In this document: one piece after another, positions 34,647 through 43,313 of the stretch | How positions within the stretch are numbered: the first letter of the stretch is position 1 | How the letters are laid out: every line of letters starts with the position of its first letter | Source: Halorussus amylolyticus | Lineage (GTDB): Archaea; Halobacteriota; Halobacteria; Halobacteriales; Haladaptataceae | Reading direction: 5' to 3' | DNA: 64,000 nucleotides | Assembly (NCBI RefSeq): GCF_004143485.2 | Contig: NZ_ML974136.1 | Span: forward strand, 1 to 64,000 | Notes under the pieces: model-generated | The model's database searches: none | Told to the model about the DNA's origin: nothing | Seen by the model: the letters and a program-made list of their open reading frames with translations, nothing else | Program-made: the position numbers and the translations under genes

Positions 34647-35444
34647 ATGCGCGCCTTCCGGGTCGCCTACGACGGTCGCCCGTTTTACGGCTTCCAGCGC
34701 CAGCCGGACGTACCCACCGTCGAGGACCGACTGTTCGACGCGCTCGCGGCCCTCGGAGTCGCGGACGGAACGCCCGAAGGGTACGCCGCGGCGGGCCGAA
34801 CCGACGCCGGGGTCTCGGCGGTCGCTCAGACCGTCGCGTTCGAGTGTCCCGACTGGCTCACCCCCGCCGCGTTCAATTCCGAACTCCCGGCGTCGATTCG
34901 AGCGTGGGCGAGCGCGGACGCCCCGAAGGGCTTTCACGCGACTCACCACGCCGAATCGCGCGAGTACGTCTACCACTGCTACGCGCCCGATGCCGACCTC
35001 GACAGGGCAAAATCCGCGCTCTCGCGACTCTCGGGCGAGAACGACTTCCACAATCTCACGGCCGACGACGGGGGAACCGTGCGAGACTTGCAGGCCGACG
35101 TTCGCCGGGAGGACGAGTATCTGGTGTTCACGCTCCGGGCCGGGGGGTTCGTCCGCGAGATGGTCCGCCGAGTGGTGTCGCTCGTGCAGGCGGTGGCGAC
35201 CGGCGATGCGGGTTTGGCGAAAATCGAGCGCGTGCTGGGACCGGAGCCAATCGACGGTCCCGAGGGCGTTCCACCAGCGCCAGCCTACCCGCTCGTGCTG
35301 ACCGACGCCGCGTACCCGATGTTGGAGTTCTCGGCGGATTCGGAGGCCGCGGCGAGGTCGCGAAACGTGTTCGACGACCTGCGCGTCGAGCGCGCGACGG
35401 GGGCGCGAGTCGCCCGCGAGGTTGTGACTCGAATCGGCGAATGA
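34647..35444 (+). CDS. truA: tRNA pseudouridine synthase A
   Basis: The 265-residue protein makes pseudouridine at positions 38-40 of the tRNA anticodon stem. The catalytic Asp lies in 'AAGRTDAGVSAVAQ' (Asp53). 'FRVAYDGRPFYGFQRQP' and the late 'FTLRAGGFVREMVRRVVSLVQAV' are the conserved TruA blocks. Length is typical for archaeal TruA. Confidence 0.94.
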   Translation: MRAFRVAYDGRPFYGFQRQPDVPTVEDRLFDALAALGVADGTPEGYAAAGRTDAGVSAVAQTVAFECPDWLTPAAFNSELPASIRAWASADAPKGFHATHHAESREYVYHCYAPDADLDRAKSALSRLSGENDFHNLTADDGGTVRDLQADVRREDEYLVFTLRAGGFVREMVRRVVSLVQAVATGDAGLAKIERVLGPEPIDGPEGVPPAPAYPLVLTDAAYPMLEFSADSEAAARSRNVFDDLRVERATGARVAREVVTRIGE

Positions 35445-35484: not shown

Positions 35485-36861
35485 CTACTCCCAGCCCTCG
35501 GGCCAGATTTCCGCGGCCTTCATTCCCTCCTCGTAATCGCCGTCTCGAAGGTCTCCGGCGACCGCCTCGACGCTCCGGCGCGGAATCTCGTCGGTCGCCG
35601 CGACTTCCTGAATCAGCAGGGCCGCGAGCATGGCGTGTTCCCGGAGATTCCTGTCGTCCACCTTGTCGCGGGTGTCGGCGTGGGTGTGTCCCCATCCTCT
35701 GCCGCGCTCGCCGCTCACGCTGTGGAGTTGGAGCGCGGGCACCTCGCGCTTGAGAAACGGCCAGTGGTCGCTGAAGGGGTGGACGTGGTCGGTAGTGTCG
35801 ATGGGCTGATTCGCATCCTCGGACACCGCCGAAACCACGTCAGCCATCGTCTCCGAGCCGTGGATGTACGCCAGCATGTCGCGGAATCGGCCCGCGCCGT
35901 CGATGTTCACGACCGCCCGAACGTCGTCGAGGTCGAGGCGCTCGGCCATCGTCTCGGCTCCGAGCAGGCCGACCTCCTCACAGCCGACGCCCGCGACCCG
36001 GACCTTCGTGTCGAGGTCCATCTCCGCGAGCAGGTGCGCGGCGGTGACGACGGTGGTGATGCCACAGCCGTTGTCGAGCGCGCCCTCCGCGATGTCGTGG
36101 GCGTCGTGGTGGCCGACGACCACGATTTCCTCGTCGGTGTCCGGCCCGAGAACGGCGTGGGCGTTGTGGCTCGTCCCGCGCTCGGTGGCGGCGTCCACTC
36201 GGAGGGTCGCGGTCGCGCCGCGGTCGGCGTAGTCGGTCAGCCACGCGCCGGTCTCCTTGCTCACGCCGACGCCCGGAATCGCGGCCTCGGCGTCGAACTT
36301 GAGCGACCCGGTCGGCGGAAGCTGGCCGGACTTGTGATTTCGGAAGACGAACGCCTTCGCGCCGCCCGCCGCCGCGTGGCCGAACTTCTCCATCCGGTGG
36401 ATGAACCGCGACCCCTTCGGGGTGGTGGTCGAGGCGACCACGATTTTGCCCTGCAAGTCGAGTTCGTCGAGTTCCTCGGGCGTGCCGTGGCCCGCGTCCA
36501 CGAGTTCGCCCCGGACCTCACCCGGCGGCGAGTAGGGGAGCGCGATGGTCTCGAACGAGCGCTCGACCGGGTCGGTGACTGCGAGGTCGGCACTTCCTCG
36601 GGTCCACCGCCACATCTCGAACGAATCGATTTCGACCTCGCGTGCGCCAGCGTGCTCGAACCCCTCGGCCACGAGGTCGGCGGCCCGTCGCTCGCCCGGG
36701 TGGCCGCCCATCCGACTCTCGATTTCGGTGAGTCGGGTGATGAACTCCCACGGGTAGTCGTCGGTCCACGCCCCGCCGAGGACGGCGTCGATGTCGTCTG
36801 CGTTCCTCTCGTTCGCGTCCCCATTGTCCGCGTCCCCGTCGCCCGTATCGGTCTCGCTCAT
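35485..36861 (-). CDS. M28 family metallopeptidase
   Basis: The 458-residue protein has the M28 zinc ligands in 'VGHHDAHDIAEGALDNGCG' (first His/Asp), 'GCEEVGLLGAE' (Glu-Glu), 'NIDGAGRF' and 'HVHPFSDHWPF'. A protease-associated-like insert lies between about residues 120 and 215. There is no export signal after the acidic N-terminus, so it is probably cytosolic. The first ~20 residues contain an Asp/Asn/Gly low-complexity stretch. A decayed copy of this gene's 5' end lies 5 kb away (41877-41961), beyond the signalling block. Confidence 0.87.
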   Translation of the reverse strand: MSETDTGDGDADNGDANERNADDIDAVLGGAWTDDYPWEFITRLTEIESRMGGHPGERRAADLVAEGFEHAGAREVEIDSFEMWRWTRGSADLAVTDPVERSFETIALPYSPPGEVRGELVDAGHGTPEELDELDLQGKIVVASTTTPKGSRFIHRMEKFGHAAAGGAKAFVFRNHKSGQLPPTGSLKFDAEAAIPGVGVSKETGAWLTDYADRGATATLRVDAATERGTSHNAHAVLGPDTDEEIVVVGHHDAHDIAEGALDNGCGITTVVTAAHLLAEMDLDTKVRVAGVGCEEVGLLGAETMAERLDLDDVRAVVNIDGAGRFRDMLAYIHGSETMADVVSAVSEDANQPIDTTDHVHPFSDHWPFLKREVPALQLHSVSGERGRGWGHTHADTRDKVDDRNLREHAMLAALLIQEVAATDEIPRRSVEAVAGDLRDGDYEEGMKAAEIWPEGWE

Positions 36862-36898
36862 GGCCGGATGTAACCGTGACGAGCCAAAAAGGTGCGTC
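36846..36898. repeat. direct repeat L bounding the signalling block
   Basis: This ~53-base segment covers the start of the M28 gene and its upstream bases. It matches 41909-41961 in the same orientation with about nine mismatches, both containing TCGCTC, TGGCCGGA, GTAACC, CGAGCCAAA and AGGTGCGT in order. Confidence 0.7.
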
Positions 36899-36916
36899 CT
36901 TGAGCAAAAGGTCGAA

Positions 36917-38674
36917 TCAGTCTCGTAGCTCGACACCAGTCACCTCGAATCGTGCTCCTCCCGTTGTACTCTCGGTGACTGCTACTTCCCAGTCGTGTGC
37001 ATCGATAATCTGTTTCACAATGGCGAGACCAAAGCCTGTCCCGTCTGCTGAAGTCGTGTATCCCGACTCGAAGATTCTGTCGCGTCGGTCGGTCGGAATT
37101 CCCGGTCCATCGTCGGCGACGTAGAAACCGTCGTCGAGCGCCCCGACTCGAATCGAGACGCCTGTTCCGCCGTGTTCCACGGCGTTCGAAAGCAGATTTT
37201 CGAACAGTTCGTACAGTCGAGTTTCGTCGGCCATCAGCTGTATATCGGACTCGACCAAGAGCACACCGCCCGGAGCGTCTACGACCTCCCACGCTGTCTC
37301 GGCACACGTCTCAAGCGACACCGGTTCGGACTCGAGCACCGTACGGCCCTGTTTGGCGAGCTCCAGCACTTCCTCAACGAGCCGTTCCATCCGATTGGCC
37401 GCCTGCTCAGCGTCCTCCAAAAACTTTCCTTCGCCGGTGTTTCGAGCGAGTTCGATTTTGCCCTGCACCACGTTGAGCGGGTTCCGAAGGTCGTGGGCAA
37501 CCGTGTGAGCGAACGATTCGAGCGTACGGTTCTGCCGACGAAGTTCGCGTTCGTGGACCTTCCGTTGGTAAATATCGCGGAAGATTCCCTGAAACAACTG
37601 TTTACCGTCGACCTCTATCAACTGGGCGTTTATCTCGACGGGCGTGGTTTCACCGTCGGCGTTCACTACCTCTATCTCCGTCCCGTCGGGTAACTCCCGG
37701 ATGACCGCAGACTCCGACTCGACGTGGTCGGCGAACAGTTGTCGATAGCGCTCGTACTCGTCGTCTGGATGGAGAATCGACTGACACGACCCGACGAGTT
37801 CCGATTGGGACCGTCCCGTCAGTTCGGCCGCGGCCCGATTAACTTCGACTATCTCGCCCGTTTCGGCATCGGCGACGACGATAGCGTCGGGTGCAGCGTC
37901 TATGAGCGAACGATACTTTTTTTGCGACCGTTCGAGCTGCCGCTCTCGTTCGACTCGCTCGGAGATATCGCGGTTAATCGCGACGAACCGCACTACGTTT
38001 CCAGCCTCGTCTTCGATAGGTGCGATGGTCTGCTCGATGGGGTAGACTTCCCCCGACTTGTGGCGGTTTTGAAGTTGGCCCTCCCATACCTCTCCGTCGA
38101 GGATAGTCTGCCACAGGTCGACGTAGAACTCCGCATCGTGGACGCCTGATTTCAGCAAACTGGGCCGCTTTCCGACCGCTTCCTCCTCGTCGTAGCCCGT
38201 TATCTCCTCGAATGCGGGATTAACGTACTCGATAGTGCCGTCCCGCCCGGTTAACATGATGGCGTGTCCAGCGTGTTCGACGGCCTCTCGGAACCCCACG
38301 AGGTCGCTCATACCGCGACACCGTCTCACCTCTCGACATATCTGGTCAGCGAGCAGTCCCGATTTCCCCCACTCGGCGAGTACGATGGGTGTTCCCGGGT
38401 GGCTCTCCCGAACCGCGCTCGGAAACGAGTGTCCATCACCCGTCAGCGCGGTTGCAGAGACGACCACACAGTCGATGTCTGGCTCTTCCTCTAGGCGGTC
38501 AAGTGCCTCGTTTGGCGAAGCCGTGCTCTCGATTCGTAGTTCGGGGTGGTCGCGGAGCGCGGCCGTCGCGTCACCACGACCTTGGTCGGTGGTAACGACG
38601 AGTACGTTGAGGTCGATTGAGGAATCGTCGCTCGTCGGACCTCCGACTTCGAGATATGGTGCGCTTTCAGTCAT
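36917..38674 (-). CDS. PAS-PAS sensor histidine kinase with receiver-like N-terminus
   Basis: The 585-residue protein has a degenerate receiver-like N-terminus (about 20-130), two PAS/PAC units (about 133-255, 'AIMLTGRDGTIEYVNPAFEEI'; about 262-380, 'AIVVADAETGEIVEVNRAAAEL'), a HisKA domain with the phospho-His in 'AHTVAHDLRNPLNVV' and an HATPase with 'ENLLSNAVEHG', 'DDGPGIP' and 'GTGFGLAIV'. No transmembrane segments are visible, so it is a soluble sensor. Its ATG overlaps the end of the response regulator gene by eight bases, so the pair is coupled. The input signal is unknown but oxygen or redox is likely given HemAT beside it. Confidence 0.92.
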   Translation of the reverse strand: MTESAPYLEVGGPTSDDSSIDLNVLVVTTDQGRGDATAALRDHPELRIESTASPNEALDRLEEEPDIDCVVVSATALTGDGHSFPSAVRESHPGTPIVLAEWGKSGLLADQICREVRRCRGMSDLVGFREAVEHAGHAIMLTGRDGTIEYVNPAFEEITGYDEEEAVGKRPSLLKSGVHDAEFYVDLWQTILDGEVWEGQLQNRHKSGEVYPIEQTIAPIEDEAGNVVRFVAINRDISERVERERQLERSQKKYRSLIDAAPDAIVVADAETGEIVEVNRAAAELTGRSQSELVGSCQSILHPDDEYERYRQLFADHVESESAVIRELPDGTEIEVVNADGETTPVEINAQLIEVDGKQLFQGIFRDIYQRKVHERELRRQNRTLESFAHTVAHDLRNPLNVVQGKIELARNTGEGKFLEDAEQAANRMERLVEEVLELAKQGRTVLESEPVSLETCAETAWEVVDAPGGVLLVESDIQLMADETRLYELFENLLSNAVEHGGTGVSIRVGALDDGFYVADDGPGIPTDRRDRIFESGYTTSADGTGFGLAIVKQIIDAHDWEVAVTESTTGGARFEVTGVELRD

Positions 38675-39251
38675 TGTCACTCTCACGGAGCATCCGAAAC
38701 GCGGCGTCGTACTTACCACCGGTGAACTCTCGTAGCGACTCATCCGTCCGCTCGCGGAGTTCGGTCAACCGTCTGGTGAGAGAAGCGAACTTCGGAGACT
38801 CGGCTAACTCAGCCTCGCCTTGGGTGTCTATCAACGTCGCTCGCTTGACCGCGAGTGTGTAGAGTTCGCGAAGTTGGTCTCCGTAGGTCGCTCGCTGTTC
38901 GAGCGATTGGACGAGCGAGAGAAGTTCTTCGCTGCCAATCGGTTTGACTTCGTAGGCATCGAACGACATGTCCATATCGTCGATGTCGGGTTCGACGGCA
39001 GTTAACATCCCGACCTCGACATCGACGTCACGTGCTTGAATCTCTTCGAGTAGTTCGTCGCCGGTGGTATCCGGCATCTTGCGGTCGAGTAGCACTATGT
39101 CGGCCCCACTCAGTTTTTCGCGCGCTTCTTCTGCGCAGGTTGCCTGTCGAACGTCGTACTCGGATTCGAGCCACGCTGCGAATGTTGTCACGAGTGCGGG
39201 TTCGTCGTCCACGATGAGCACTGTGGACTGTTCGGAGTCGTCCGAATCCAT
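38667..39251 (-). CDS. response regulator with HalX domain
   Basis: The 194-residue protein has a receiver with 'VLIVDDEPAL' (Asp15, Asp16), phospho-acceptor Asp56 in 'IVLLDRKMPD' and the Lys in 'YEVKPIG', followed by a C-terminal HalX domain (about 120-190, helical). HalX response regulators are specific to haloarchaea and usually pair with PAS kinases. It overlaps the downstream kinase gene. No DNA-binding motif is obvious. Confidence 0.9.
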   Translation of the reverse strand: MDSDDSEQSTVLIVDDEPALVTTFAAWLESEYDVRQATCAEEAREKLSGADIVLLDRKMPDTTGDELLEEIQARDVDVEVGMLTAVEPDIDDMDMSFDAYEVKPIGSEELLSLVQSLEQRATYGDQLRELYTLAVKRATLIDTQGEAELAESPKFASLTRRLTELRERTDESLREFTGGKYDAAFRMLRESDND

Positions 39252-39347
39252 CTTTTGTCACAGTTTGGTAAGCTACCGGCCGTACGTGCTTTATCCAAAC
39301 ATGTTAAAATCAACGTGTCGCCAAACAGTTCGCTCTTTTAAATAGAA

Positions 39348-39989
39348 TCACTCGACGTCGAACGTCTGCCGGAGGAGTTTTTGAACTGCGGTTCGCGTGT
39401 GACTGGAGAACGTGGACGCCGAAACACCGAGTTCGTCGGCAAGATCCTCTGTGTCCGCTCCGTCGGCCCCGAAATACTCGCCTTCCACGGCGACCCTGAG
39501 GGCCTCTCGCTGACGAGCGGTCAGTGACTGGAGATCGATACGGACGCTCGACTCGACTTCGAGGTCGGCGTCACCCAGAGCGAGGTGTTTGAGTTCGACG
39601 GTGTATCCCGCCCTTCGGAAACGGTCCACGACCGTTTTGAGCTCGTCTTGGTTCCGAAACGCGAATTTGAGGTGTAGTTCCTCTTTCCGCCAGAAGCACT
39701 CGTACGGTAGCGTCGGGAGGAATGAGAACGTCGAAAGCAAGCACTCCGTCACGTCACATTCTCTGCACGCCGAACGGCCGATCGAGGAGTCGTCTTCGTC
39801 GGTGGAGATGTCCTCCTCTTTACCGAACCCGGTCACCCGGTAGTACGTGTAGTCGTCCGTCCGAAGGGTCGGTACGAGATGGGGCCAATCGTCGAGTTCG
39901 TTCGTGTGGCGAGCTTCGACGAGTATCTGACTGTCAGCTTGGTCGTTGCTAGCGGGAACGAACCCGGCGATAAAACTGGCCTTCGCCAT
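39348..39989 (-). CDS. Bat-type HTH regulator with N-terminal Cys cluster
   Basis: The 213-residue protein ends with an HTH_10-type domain ('SLTARQREALRVAVEGEYFG', then 'LADELGVSASTFSSHTRTAVQKLL') as in bacterioopsin activator relatives. The N-terminal sensing domain contains the unusual 'ACRECDVTEC' (C-x2-C-x4-C), which could bind metal or react with oxidants. It lies between the kinase/regulator pair and HemAT. Start ATG 39989 is chosen from the usual 'MAKASF' family opening; longer in-frame starts exist. The upstream 345 bases (39990-40334) are unusually AT-rich and hold no other gene. Confidence 0.82.
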   Translation of the reverse strand: MAKASFIAGFVPASNDQADSQILVEARHTNELDDWPHLVPTLRTDDYTYYRVTGFGKEEDISTDEDDSSIGRSACRECDVTECLLSTFSFLPTLPYECFWRKEELHLKFAFRNQDELKTVVDRFRRAGYTVELKHLALGDADLEVESSVRIDLQSLTARQREALRVAVEGEYFGADGADTEDLADELGVSASTFSSHTRTAVQKLLRQTFDVE

Positions 39990-40334
39990 GTCCACGATTG
40001 GACAGCGACCGACGGGCTGGATTCCGATTCGGGCACTGATACCGGAGGTCACAGGTATTGAGAGGGGTAAGCGTCGTTTGAATGTTTTGTTATTTTTCCC
40101 GTTTTTGGAGGCTTTCTTCCAATTCCACAACTTATACTTTTTCTATCTGAAACCAATATTCTGGTCGTAGTAATACTCCACGAGCATACACGATTCATAT
40201 TAAAGTGCAAATAATTCGGGCTAACTGTTATATCTCCTGTCTCTCACCGTCCACCCATACTGGTCGGGATTGACTGAGGAGCTCAACGATTCCGGTACTC
40301 ACCTCGGCCAGCGCCACACGATTCACTCTCCAAC

Positions 40335-41852
40335 ATGACAAACGATATGGATTCCGCGAAAAAGACAGGTGCGCAGAAATCGTTGGCCGCGCGCGTTGAC
40401 GGAGAGGAAACGAGCGCGGCCATCGGTCTCGACGGCGAGGAAATCGAGTGGCGGAAAGACTACGCGGGCTTCGACGACGACGACGTCCGGCGACTCGAAC
40501 GACTCGGACCGTTGTTCGAGCGCGTCGCGGACGACCTGGTGGCCGACTTCTACGACCACCTCCAACAGTACGACGAGACGCTCACCATCCTCGACCGTTC
40601 GACTCGGAGCATCGAACAGTTGAAGCAGACCCAATCACAGTACCTCATCGACCTCGGAAGCGGCGAGTACGGGCGAGACTACTTCCACCGACGCGCCCGC
40701 ATCGGTAAGATTCACGACCTGCTCGACCTCGGGCCCAAGATCCACCTCGGTGCGTACGTCGTCTATTACGAGGGACTCGTTCGGGCCATCGCCGACGATG
40801 CGAAAGCCGACCTCGACCAAGACGCGTCGTCAGTACTCGACGAGACGGTCGAAGACATCCTCTCGGTGCTCCGAATCACGAACGTCGACCAGCAGGTCGC
40901 AATGGATGCGTACATCGATTCGTACAGTGATCGATTGTCGTCCGAACTCGAAACTCGAAAGCGAGTCTCTGAGGACATAACCGCTTCGGTCGAAGAGCTC
41001 GGCGACTCGGCCGACGAAATCGCGACCAGTTCGAGTCAGATAAGCGACCTCGCCGACGGTCAGTCGGCCAGCATGAACGAGGTCGCGAGCGAAGTCGCTG
41101 ACCTCAGCGCGACCGTCGAGGAGATCGCATCGAGTGCGGAGGAGGTCGCTTCGACCAGTCGGGAGACCGAAGAACTCGCGGACGAGGGCCAGCGCGCCGC
41201 CAACGACGCTATCGACGCGATGGAGGACATCGACCGCGCTCAGACCAACGTGAACACGGACGTGACTGATCTCCAGCAGACGGTCGCGGAAATCGACGCG
41301 GTCGTCGACGTGATAAACGACATCGCCGACCAGACGAATCTCCTCGCGCTCAACGCCAACATCGAGGCCGCCCGCGCAGGCGACGCCGGAAGCGGGTTCG
41401 CGGTCGTCGCCAACGAGGTGAAATCGCTGGCTGAGGAGTCGAAGGCGCAGGCCGAGAACATCGAGTCGATGATCAGTGATATCGAGGAGAGCACCGAGAA
41501 CACGGTCGAGAGCCTGAAGACGACCGAAGACCGGGTCGAAGCCGGTCTCGAAAACGTCGAGACGGCAGTCGAGACGCTGACCGACATCGTGGAAGGCGTC
41601 AGAGAGACCGTCCACGGCATCGACGAGGTAGCCGGGGCGACCGACGAGCAGGCCGCGAGCACCGAGGAGATCGCCGCGATGGTCGATCAAGCGGCGGAGA
41701 AAGCCGAAGACATCTCGGGCGAAATCGAAGCCGTGGCGGCGGCGACGGAGGAACAAAGTGAGAAGATTCGCAAGATAGAGGACTCTTGCGAACAACTGAG
41801 TGATACCGACGACGAGAGCGAGTTCGAATTTCGGCCGTCCAACCCCAACTGA
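40335..41852 (+). CDS. hemAT: HemAT-type globin-coupled transducer (aerotaxis)
   Basis: The 505-residue protein has an N-terminal globin sensor (about 35-190) with the expected proximal His region '[18 protein letters not shown]', and a C-terminal methyl-accepting signalling hairpin ('[21 protein letters not shown]', then '[16 protein letters not shown]', near residues 325-370). There are no transmembrane helices, so it is a soluble transducer. HemAT proteins bind O2 and steer the flagellar/archaellar motor through CheA. Its position with a kinase pair and a Cys-cluster regulator suggests one oxygen or redox block. Confidence 0.93.
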
Positions 41853-41876
41853 GAAAAACGTGCGATTCGGCCTCCG

Positions 41877-41924
41877 GTGGTCGTCGCGCCACGCCTTGTC
41901 GAGAACGATATCGGTGTCGCTCGT
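41877..41924 (-). pseudogene. 5'-end remnant of an M28 peptidase gene
   Basis: The minus strand reads, from a mutated start (ACG instead of ATG at 41922-41924), a ~16-codon stretch with 'SDTDIVLDKAWRDDH'. It resembles the true M28 N-terminus, which reads 'SETDTG' then 'DIDAVLGGAWTDDY'. Coding then stops matching near 41877, just after the HemAT gene. Together with the shared upstream bases (to 41961) this is a broken duplicate of the M28 gene start. Confidence 0.55.
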
Positions 41925-41961
41925 GGCCGGACGTAACCCCCGCGAGCCAAAGAGGTGCGTA
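41909..41961. repeat. direct repeat R bounding the signalling block
   Basis: It matches 36846-36898 in the same orientation (about 83% over 53 bases). The pair lies 5.06 kb apart and encloses the kinase, response regulator, Bat-type and HemAT genes. This copy lies within the spacer before sufS. Confidence 0.7.
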
Positions 41962-42065
41962 CTCCTGCGAAGAATCCGATTGAAGTGCGGAGCGAAACCG
42001 ATTCCGGTTACGAACCCCCGCCCGGACCGAAGGAATGTTCATCCTCGAACCCCTAAATATCCACA

Positions 42066-43313
42066 ATGGGACTTCAGAAATCGGACGCGTTCGACGTGGA
42101 GCGCATACGGGAGGACTTCCCCATCCTCGAACGCGAAGTCAACGACGGCCAGCAGGTGGTGTATCTCGACAACGGCGCGACGACCCAGAAGCCGAATCAG
42201 GTCATCGACGCCATGTCCGAGTACTACCGGACGTACAACGCGAACGTCCATCGCGGCATCCACCAACTCAGCCAAGAGGCCTCCATCGCCTACGAGGAGG
42301 CCCACGACACGGTCGCCGACTTCATCGGTGCGGACGGCCGCGAGGAGGTTGTGTTCACCAAGAACACCACCGAAGCCGAGAATCTGGTCGCCTACGCGTG
42401 GGGACTCAACGAACTCGGGCCGGGCGACGAGGTCGTGCTCACGGAGATGGAACACCACGCCTCGCTCGTGACGTGGCAACAAATCGGCAGGAAGACCGGT
42501 GCGGACGTGAAATTCATCCCCGTGACCGACAACGGCTACCTCGACATGGCGGCCGCGAGAGACCTCGTGACCGACGACACGGAGATGGTGAGCGCGGTCC
42601 ACGTCTCGAACACGCTCGGCACGATAAACCCGGCCGAAGAACTCGCGGACCTCGCCCACGACCACGACGCCTACGTCTTCCTCGACGGCGCGCAGGCGGT
42701 TCCCACGCGCCCGGTGGACGTGAAGGACCTCGACGCCGACTTCTACGCCTTCTCGGGCCACAAGATGGTCGGTCCGACCGGAATCGGGTGTCTCTACGGC
42801 AAAAAAGAGATTCTGGAGGAGATGGAACCGTACCTCTACGGCGGCGACATGATTCGGAAGGTCACGTTCGAGGAGACGACGTGGAACGACCTGCCGTGGA
42901 AGTTCGAGGCCGGGACGCCCAACATCGCCGAAGCCATCGGTCTCGCCGTGGCTGTCGAGTACCTCGAAGACATCGGGATGAGCAACGTCCAGCGCCACGA
43001 GGAGCGACTCGCGGGCTACGCCCTCGAACGGATGGCGGAACTCGACGACATCGAGGTGTACGGCCCGACCGACGCGCGCGACCGCGGCGGCCTCGTCTCG
43101 TTCAACCTCGACGGCGTCCACGCCCACGACCTCGCCTCTATCATGAACGACCACGGGGTCGCCATCCGGGCGGGCGACCACTGCACCCAACCGCTCCACG
43201 ACAAACTCGGCATCGCGGCGTCGGCGCGCGCATCGTTCTACATCTACAACACGACGGACGAAATCGACGCTCTGCTGGAGGCGGTTGACGACGCGCGGCA
43301 GTTGTTCGCCTGA
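42066..43313 (+). CDS. sufS: cysteine desulfurase SufS
   Basis: The 415-residue class V PLP enzyme takes sulfur from cysteine for Fe-S clusters. The PLP Lys is in 'FSGHKMVGPTGIG' (Lys233), the N-terminal signature is 'YLDNGATTQKP', the PLP ring is stacked by His in 'EMEHHASLVTW', and the sulfur-carrying Cys is in 'RAGDHCTQPL' (Cys373). It is a group II desulfurase (SufS), which usually works with SufU, found 1.3 kb downstream on the same strand. Confidence 0.95.
   Translation: MGLQKSDAFDVERIREDFPILEREVNDGQQVVYLDNGATTQKPNQVIDAMSEYYRTYNANVHRGIHQLSQEASIAYEEAHDTVADFIGADGREEVVFTKNTTEAENLVAYAWGLNELGPGDEVVLTEMEHHASLVTWQQIGRKTGADVKFIPVTDNGYLDMAAARDLVTDDTEMVSAVHVSNTLGTINPAEELADLAHDHDAYVFLDGAQAVPTRPVDVKDLDADFYAFSGHKMVGPTGIGCLYGKKEILEEMEPYLYGGDMIRKVTFEETTWNDLPWKFEAGTPNIAEAIGLAVAVEYLEDIGMSNVQRHEERLAGYALERMAELDDIEVYGPTDARDRGGLVSFNLDGVHAHDLASIMNDHGVAIRAGDHCTQPLHDKLGIAASARASFYIYNTTDEIDALLEAVDDARQLFA

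Follow-up and report, generated by a model that had tools for sequence, protein, structure and literature searches.

How did a small set of signalling genes come to lie between two copies of the start of an M28 peptidase gene in the haloarchaeon Halorussus amylolyticus? We addressed this question in a stretch of 64,000 nucleotides of its genome (contig NZ_ML974136.1, positions 1 to 64,000), hereafter the window; the genome itself is labelled G000. A preliminary description of this DNA had proposed that the signalling genes entered the spacer between M28 and sufS in one event that duplicated the M28 start.

Two copies of an M28 gene start

The features on which the comparison of the two copies rests are the following.

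35485-36861, minus strand: intact M28 peptidase gene (PA and Peptidase_M28 domains), native to the genus, with an extended acidic N-terminus, MSETDTGDGDADNGDANERNADDIDAVLGGAWTDDYPW
36846-36900, minus strand: left repeat copy, which spans the promoter (T-rich box at 36885-36890), the start codon and the first codons of M28
36862-36916, minus strand: gap with the retained M28 promoter, 55 bases from the kinase stop codon to the M28 ATG
41877-41924, minus strand: M28 stub, in which ACG replaces ATG and is followed by SDTDIVLDKAWRDDH; M28 homology ends at codon 16
41909-41963, minus strand: right repeat copy, with the start of the stub and a decayed M28 promoter; TCTTTG at 41948-41953

The direct repeat first described as about 53 bases with some nine mismatches is real: the two copies are in the same orientation and align without gaps at 46 of 55 bases. 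With gaps allowed, their local alignment scores 74, the best of about 3,000 random segments of the window only 44, and the second-ranked match to the 55-mer elsewhere in the window reaches 30 bases. Genome-wide (3.78 Mb), a search for a pattern with 40 bases specified, allowing at most three mismatches, matched the two repeat copies and nothing else, and the control gave no match. A chance similarity or a shared promoter motif, without any duplication, might be suggested by the T-rich box that lies within the match and is also found before M28 in relatives. With only two such sites genome-wide, 46 matches against a next-best 30, and homology that enters codons, this explanation is practically ruled out, and the common promoter motif that had been named as a possible objection is not what we found.

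The homology of the right copy extends beyond the 53-55 bases as protein-coding sequence, to about 41877. As reported earlier, the start codon has decayed: ACG stands at 41922-41924 where the intact gene has ATG at 36859-36861, and 15 codons follow on the minus strand. Together these 16 codons resemble the short M28 N-termini of relatives, such as MSDTDRLLGEAWRDP, with MSDIDRLLGETWRDDYPW in G006 and MSDTDRLLGEAWRDPYPW in G009, whereas the N-terminus of the intact M28 is extended and acidic. This match identifies the right copy as a dead M28 start, made of the promoter and first 16 codons of an M28 gene. Its promoter box has also decayed (TCTTTG for TTTTTG), and its M28 homology stops 24 bases from the HemAT stop codon at 41852. 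The extension of the intact protein is encoded at 36790-36861 and is acidic and rich in repeats (MSETDTGDGDADNGDANERNADD); an extension similar in character, and independent, is present in G017.

Of the 39 bases that precede the start, the left and right copies share 32, and each shares 25 with the nearest congener (G006), a difference that alone is not significant (p = 0.12). All other M28 promoters match this region at 22 of 39 bases or fewer, even with sliding, and M28 fourfold sites, which give a scale for the comparison, are 62-67% identical between G000 and congeners. The two promoter copies look like each other's closest relatives. In codons 2-16 they agree at 32 of 45 positions, which is not above the agreement of each copy with other congeners. 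Visual comparison with G006 and G009 suggests, in addition, that each copy has private changes. Taken together, the promoter counts and the private changes are suggestive of a duplication younger than the G006 split, or of a second copy from a source closer than G006.

Decay of M28 to a 5′ stub does occur within the genus. In G005, a dead M28 remnant lies between truA and pepF (L121, about 970-1200), with codons 26-72 or so readable and followed by apparent C-terminal debris; it records an independent loss of the gene. Neither G001 nor G003 yielded an orthologue of M28.

A signalling block of unusual composition

Four genes lie between the repeat copies, and their domains confirm the gene content given in the preliminary description.

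36917-38674, minus strand: histidine kinase (PAS-PAS-HisKA-HATPase, Pfam); GC3 0.66; 8-base overlap with the HalX gene
38667-39251, minus strand: REC-HalX response regulator (Pfam); GC3 0.65
39348-40055, minus strand: HTH_10 (Bat/DmsR-like) regulator (Pfam); GC3 0.69, measured on 39348-40130
40335-41852, plus strand: HemAT (protoglobin, PF11563, and MCP signalling, PF00015); GC3 0.79

The regulator previously called Bat-type does have HTH_10 as its main Pfam match; it is not a full Bat, since it has no PAS or GAF match and its DmsR_N match is weak and below the cut-off. No integrase, recombinase or transposase was detected by Pfam among the block genes, in line with the earlier statement on integrases. 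By their domains, the genes would encode a two-component pair of the ordinary kind, accompanied by an HTH_10 regulator and a soluble haem-based aerotaxis transducer. The overlap of the kinase and HalX genes makes translational coupling possible, and joint control of these genes by oxygen or redox state is a plausible guess from the domains.

The GC3 values of the first three genes, and to a lesser degree that of HemAT, are lower than those of the flanks (mostly 0.83-0.89). As composition could reflect the type of gene, we measured as a control the HemAT paralogue and six further signalling genes of G000, which gave 0.81-0.90. In a rough sample of 83 ORFs of G000 (mean 0.81, sd 0.07, 5th percentile 0.66), values of 0.65-0.69 fall in roughly the lowest tenth, which is low and still within the range. 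Together with their patchy distribution, described below, these values give the three genes (kinase, HalX and HTH_10) the look of an acquisition.

The window HemAT matches 1or4 with an E-value of 1.7e-7 and, in its first 215 residues, has an identity of about 50% with the genus-type HemAT. A genus-type HemAT is also present in G000, on contig C14, and is 68-73% identical to those of congeners over the same residues. The window HemAT is thus a second, divergent HemAT of this genome.

A new junction between M28 and sufS

The block and its repeats are framed by genes whose usual neighbours can be compared across the family.

34647-35444, plus strand: truA, found next to M28 at each of the 20 M28 loci examined
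41964-41991, no strand: junction of M28-upstream DNA with conserved sufS-upstream DNA; lineage-specific synteny breakpoint
41992-42065, plus strand: region upstream of sufS, conserved in most congeners (78-87% identity)
42066-43313, plus strand: sufS (cysteine desulfurase); conserved HD-domain and sufU genes come next

M28 does not adjoin sufS in any family genome searched, the two genes being far apart there; the other side of M28 usually faces a divergent pepF. Relatives thus have an M28-pepF arrangement without the block, and none has M28 next to sufS. A TPR gene precedes sufS in 20 of 20 loci examined, with a small gene between them in G001 (one locus read). In G000, pepF adjoins a different gene, on contig C1, and the TPR gene with its small companion adjoins yet another, on C2, so that pepF, the gene preceding sufS, and M28 and sufS themselves all have new neighbours. 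At least three synteny breakpoints are private to G000 among the sampled congeners (C1:256727, C2:77400 and C9:41964-41991).

Since M28 and sufS are apart in all family genomes searched, their adjacency is itself new, with the junction within 41964-41991, and the right repeat copy also marks a lineage-specific rearrangement. The idea that the block entered an existing M28-sufS spacer is not supported as it stood: such a spacer is not ancestral in the family genomes searched.

In G018, pepF and M28 are 13.5 kb apart (L100, 1-10045), and the part of this gap that was read contains ordinary genes. The gap looks like another rearrangement at the pepF-M28 site, with no obvious insertion of mobile genes, and gives no support to the pepF-M28 interval as an insertion hotspot.

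A related cluster in another genus

Of the 28 family genomes, 2, which belong to different genera, have the kinase-HalX-HTH_10 core; among these and 392 genomes of the order, the only comparable copy elsewhere is that of G020, which belongs to another genus. Its HalX is the best match to ours (61% identical), all others in the 392 order genomes reaching 49% at most. In G020 the cluster lies between pepF and M28, and the series HTH_10-HalX-kinase-M28-truA is arranged and oriented as in the window, with identities of 49% for HTH_10, 61% for HalX, 57-61% for the two halves of the kinase and 74% for M28. The G020 cluster has neither HemAT nor a second M28 start or repeat, and no donor carrying the block together with HemAT was found in the genomes searched.

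In G000 and G020 alike, the kinase gene ends shortly before the M28 promoter: from its stop codon to the M28 ATG there are 55 bases in the window and about 47 in G020. M28 keeps its own promoter, but read-through from the kinase gene is possible. The kinases themselves differ in PAS content, with two PAS domains in the window (36917-38674) and one in G020 (L082, 12195-13577); a whole second PAS domain (residues 240-366 approximately) was presumably gained or lost between them.

The M28 gene gives no sign of having crossed between the genera. Trees of the whole gene and of its first 190 residues both place M28 in its genus, no clear cross-genus mosaic breakpoint was found, and an origin of the 5′ part in another genus has no support in the trees. 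The left promoter matches that of G020 at 19 of 39 bases or fewer, which argues against an M28 end of the G020 type as the carrier of the block. From this and the lack of a mosaic, any donor would be a near relative.

Origin of the block

The genome has two M28 starts, one of them decaying, around a block of unusual composition and patchy distribution. The explanation that we tentatively prefer, at close to an even chance, is that the block was gained at the 5′ edge of M28 by recombination anchored in that gene, the resident 5′ end being left as a stub. The kinase, HalX regulator, HTH_10 regulator and HemAT would have joined the lineage at this edge either through one-sided homology, with the opposite end joined illegitimately, or through a single crossover of a circle bearing a 5′ fragment of M28. 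On the left, the outcome would be a complete M28 with its promoter; on the right, the resident M28 5′ end (promoter and 16 codons) would persist between HemAT and sufS as a dying stub. We infer both the anchoring in M28 and a donor nearer to this species than its nearest sampled relative. M28-anchored recombination would account for the full M28 on the left, the stub on the right, the block between them and the direct orientation, with no need of an integrase or inverted ends. A single-crossover circle, a one-sided homology joint, or duplication followed by deletion would leave the same anatomy, and either the M28-sufS rearrangement or the arrival of the block may have come first. From the original proposal we thus retain a block that was probably acquired and a duplicated M28 start, and find no support for an ancestral M28-sufS spacer as its target; that a single event was involved is possible.

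Among the alternatives, separate events are a less probable explanation, to be kept in mind as the main competitor: in two or more steps, the M28 5′ end would have been doubled, or an entire second M28 reduced by deletion to a stub, with independent arrival of the signalling genes between the copies. The internal-deletion decay of M28 in G005 and the failure to find the gene in G001 and G003 fit this scenario, as do the private changes that both copies seem to carry. In addition, the block may be composite, as HemAT differs from the other three genes in GC3 and is missing from the G020 cluster. More steps are needed, however, and no genome in the set has a duplicated M28 start without the block. 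An ancestral kinase-HalX-HTH_10 cluster beside M28, lost by nearly all of the family so that only HemAT and the stub are new, seems unlikely to us. It would explain why two genera share the same kinase-M28 junction just upstream of the M28 promoter, and HalX (61%) and the kinase (57-61%) are not much less similar to their G020 counterparts than M28 is (74%); yet with 2 of 28 family genomes it requires about seven losses on the M28 tree against two gains, and the GC3 of these genes is low in G000 compared with its other signalling genes.

Site-specific entry is more doubtful still. If the block were a decayed integrative element with its attachment site in the M28 5′ end, the two repeats would be attL and attR; direct repeats do flank the block, and the left one restores a full gene start. 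Against it, the block encodes no integrase, recombinase or transposase, the copies are only 84% identical, G020 has no second M28 start, and no inverted-repeat pair is found at the two block ends, which also disposes of transposon ends. A duplication of about 55-90 bases, as here, also exceeds the usual target duplications. Slightly less probable again is a mobile kinase-HalX-HTH_10 module that lands recurrently at the upstream edge of the M28 promoter in this family, and has done so twice independently, with a recombinase acting in trans and the M28 start as attachment site.

Likeness to known systems

Bacteria provide documented cases of integration in which one end is joined by homology and the other illegitimately (PMC3240628), and homology-facilitated illegitimate recombination was invoked for displaced effector/immunity arrays, in which parts of older genes are left behind new modules (PMC5361080). 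The locus, like these cases, has part of an older gene beyond new ones, and the new genes would likewise have joined at a homologous anchor. It differs in that the leftover is a 5′ stub, the host is haloarchaeal, and the anatomy also fits a single-crossover circle or a later deletion: the stub end at codon 16, close to the HemAT stop, would look identical after such a deletion. For haloarchaea we found no documentation of this mechanism, the descriptions being bacterial.

Like other haloarchaeal kinase-HalX pairs, the block has a PAS kinase gene overlapping that of a REC-HalX regulator, with an HTH_10 regulator adjoining. Unlike them, it lies beside M28, and only here does a divergent HemAT adjoin the HTH_10 gene. 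HemAT has the protoglobin and then MCP signalling domain of the haem-based aerotactic transducer (1or4), as well as an 11-residue stretch common to other haloarchaeal HemATs; it differs from the genus type as a second, divergent copy with about half of the first 215 residues identical. The HTH_10 regulator departs from classical Bat, the bacterioopsin activator, in which a PAS/GAF sensor is joined to HTH_10.

Significance

The acquisition of genes with a partial-gene scar is an already known kind of event and no new system, and the block leaves the knowledge of oxygen sensing unchanged. Its value lies in a readable scar of signalling-gene gain in a haloarchaeon, at a site with no visible mobile element, where the dead M28 start would both date and orient the acquisition. 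Moreover, with the same three genes at the same core-gene edge in two genera, the locus may serve as a small test case for the travel of modules by recombination in flanking core genes.
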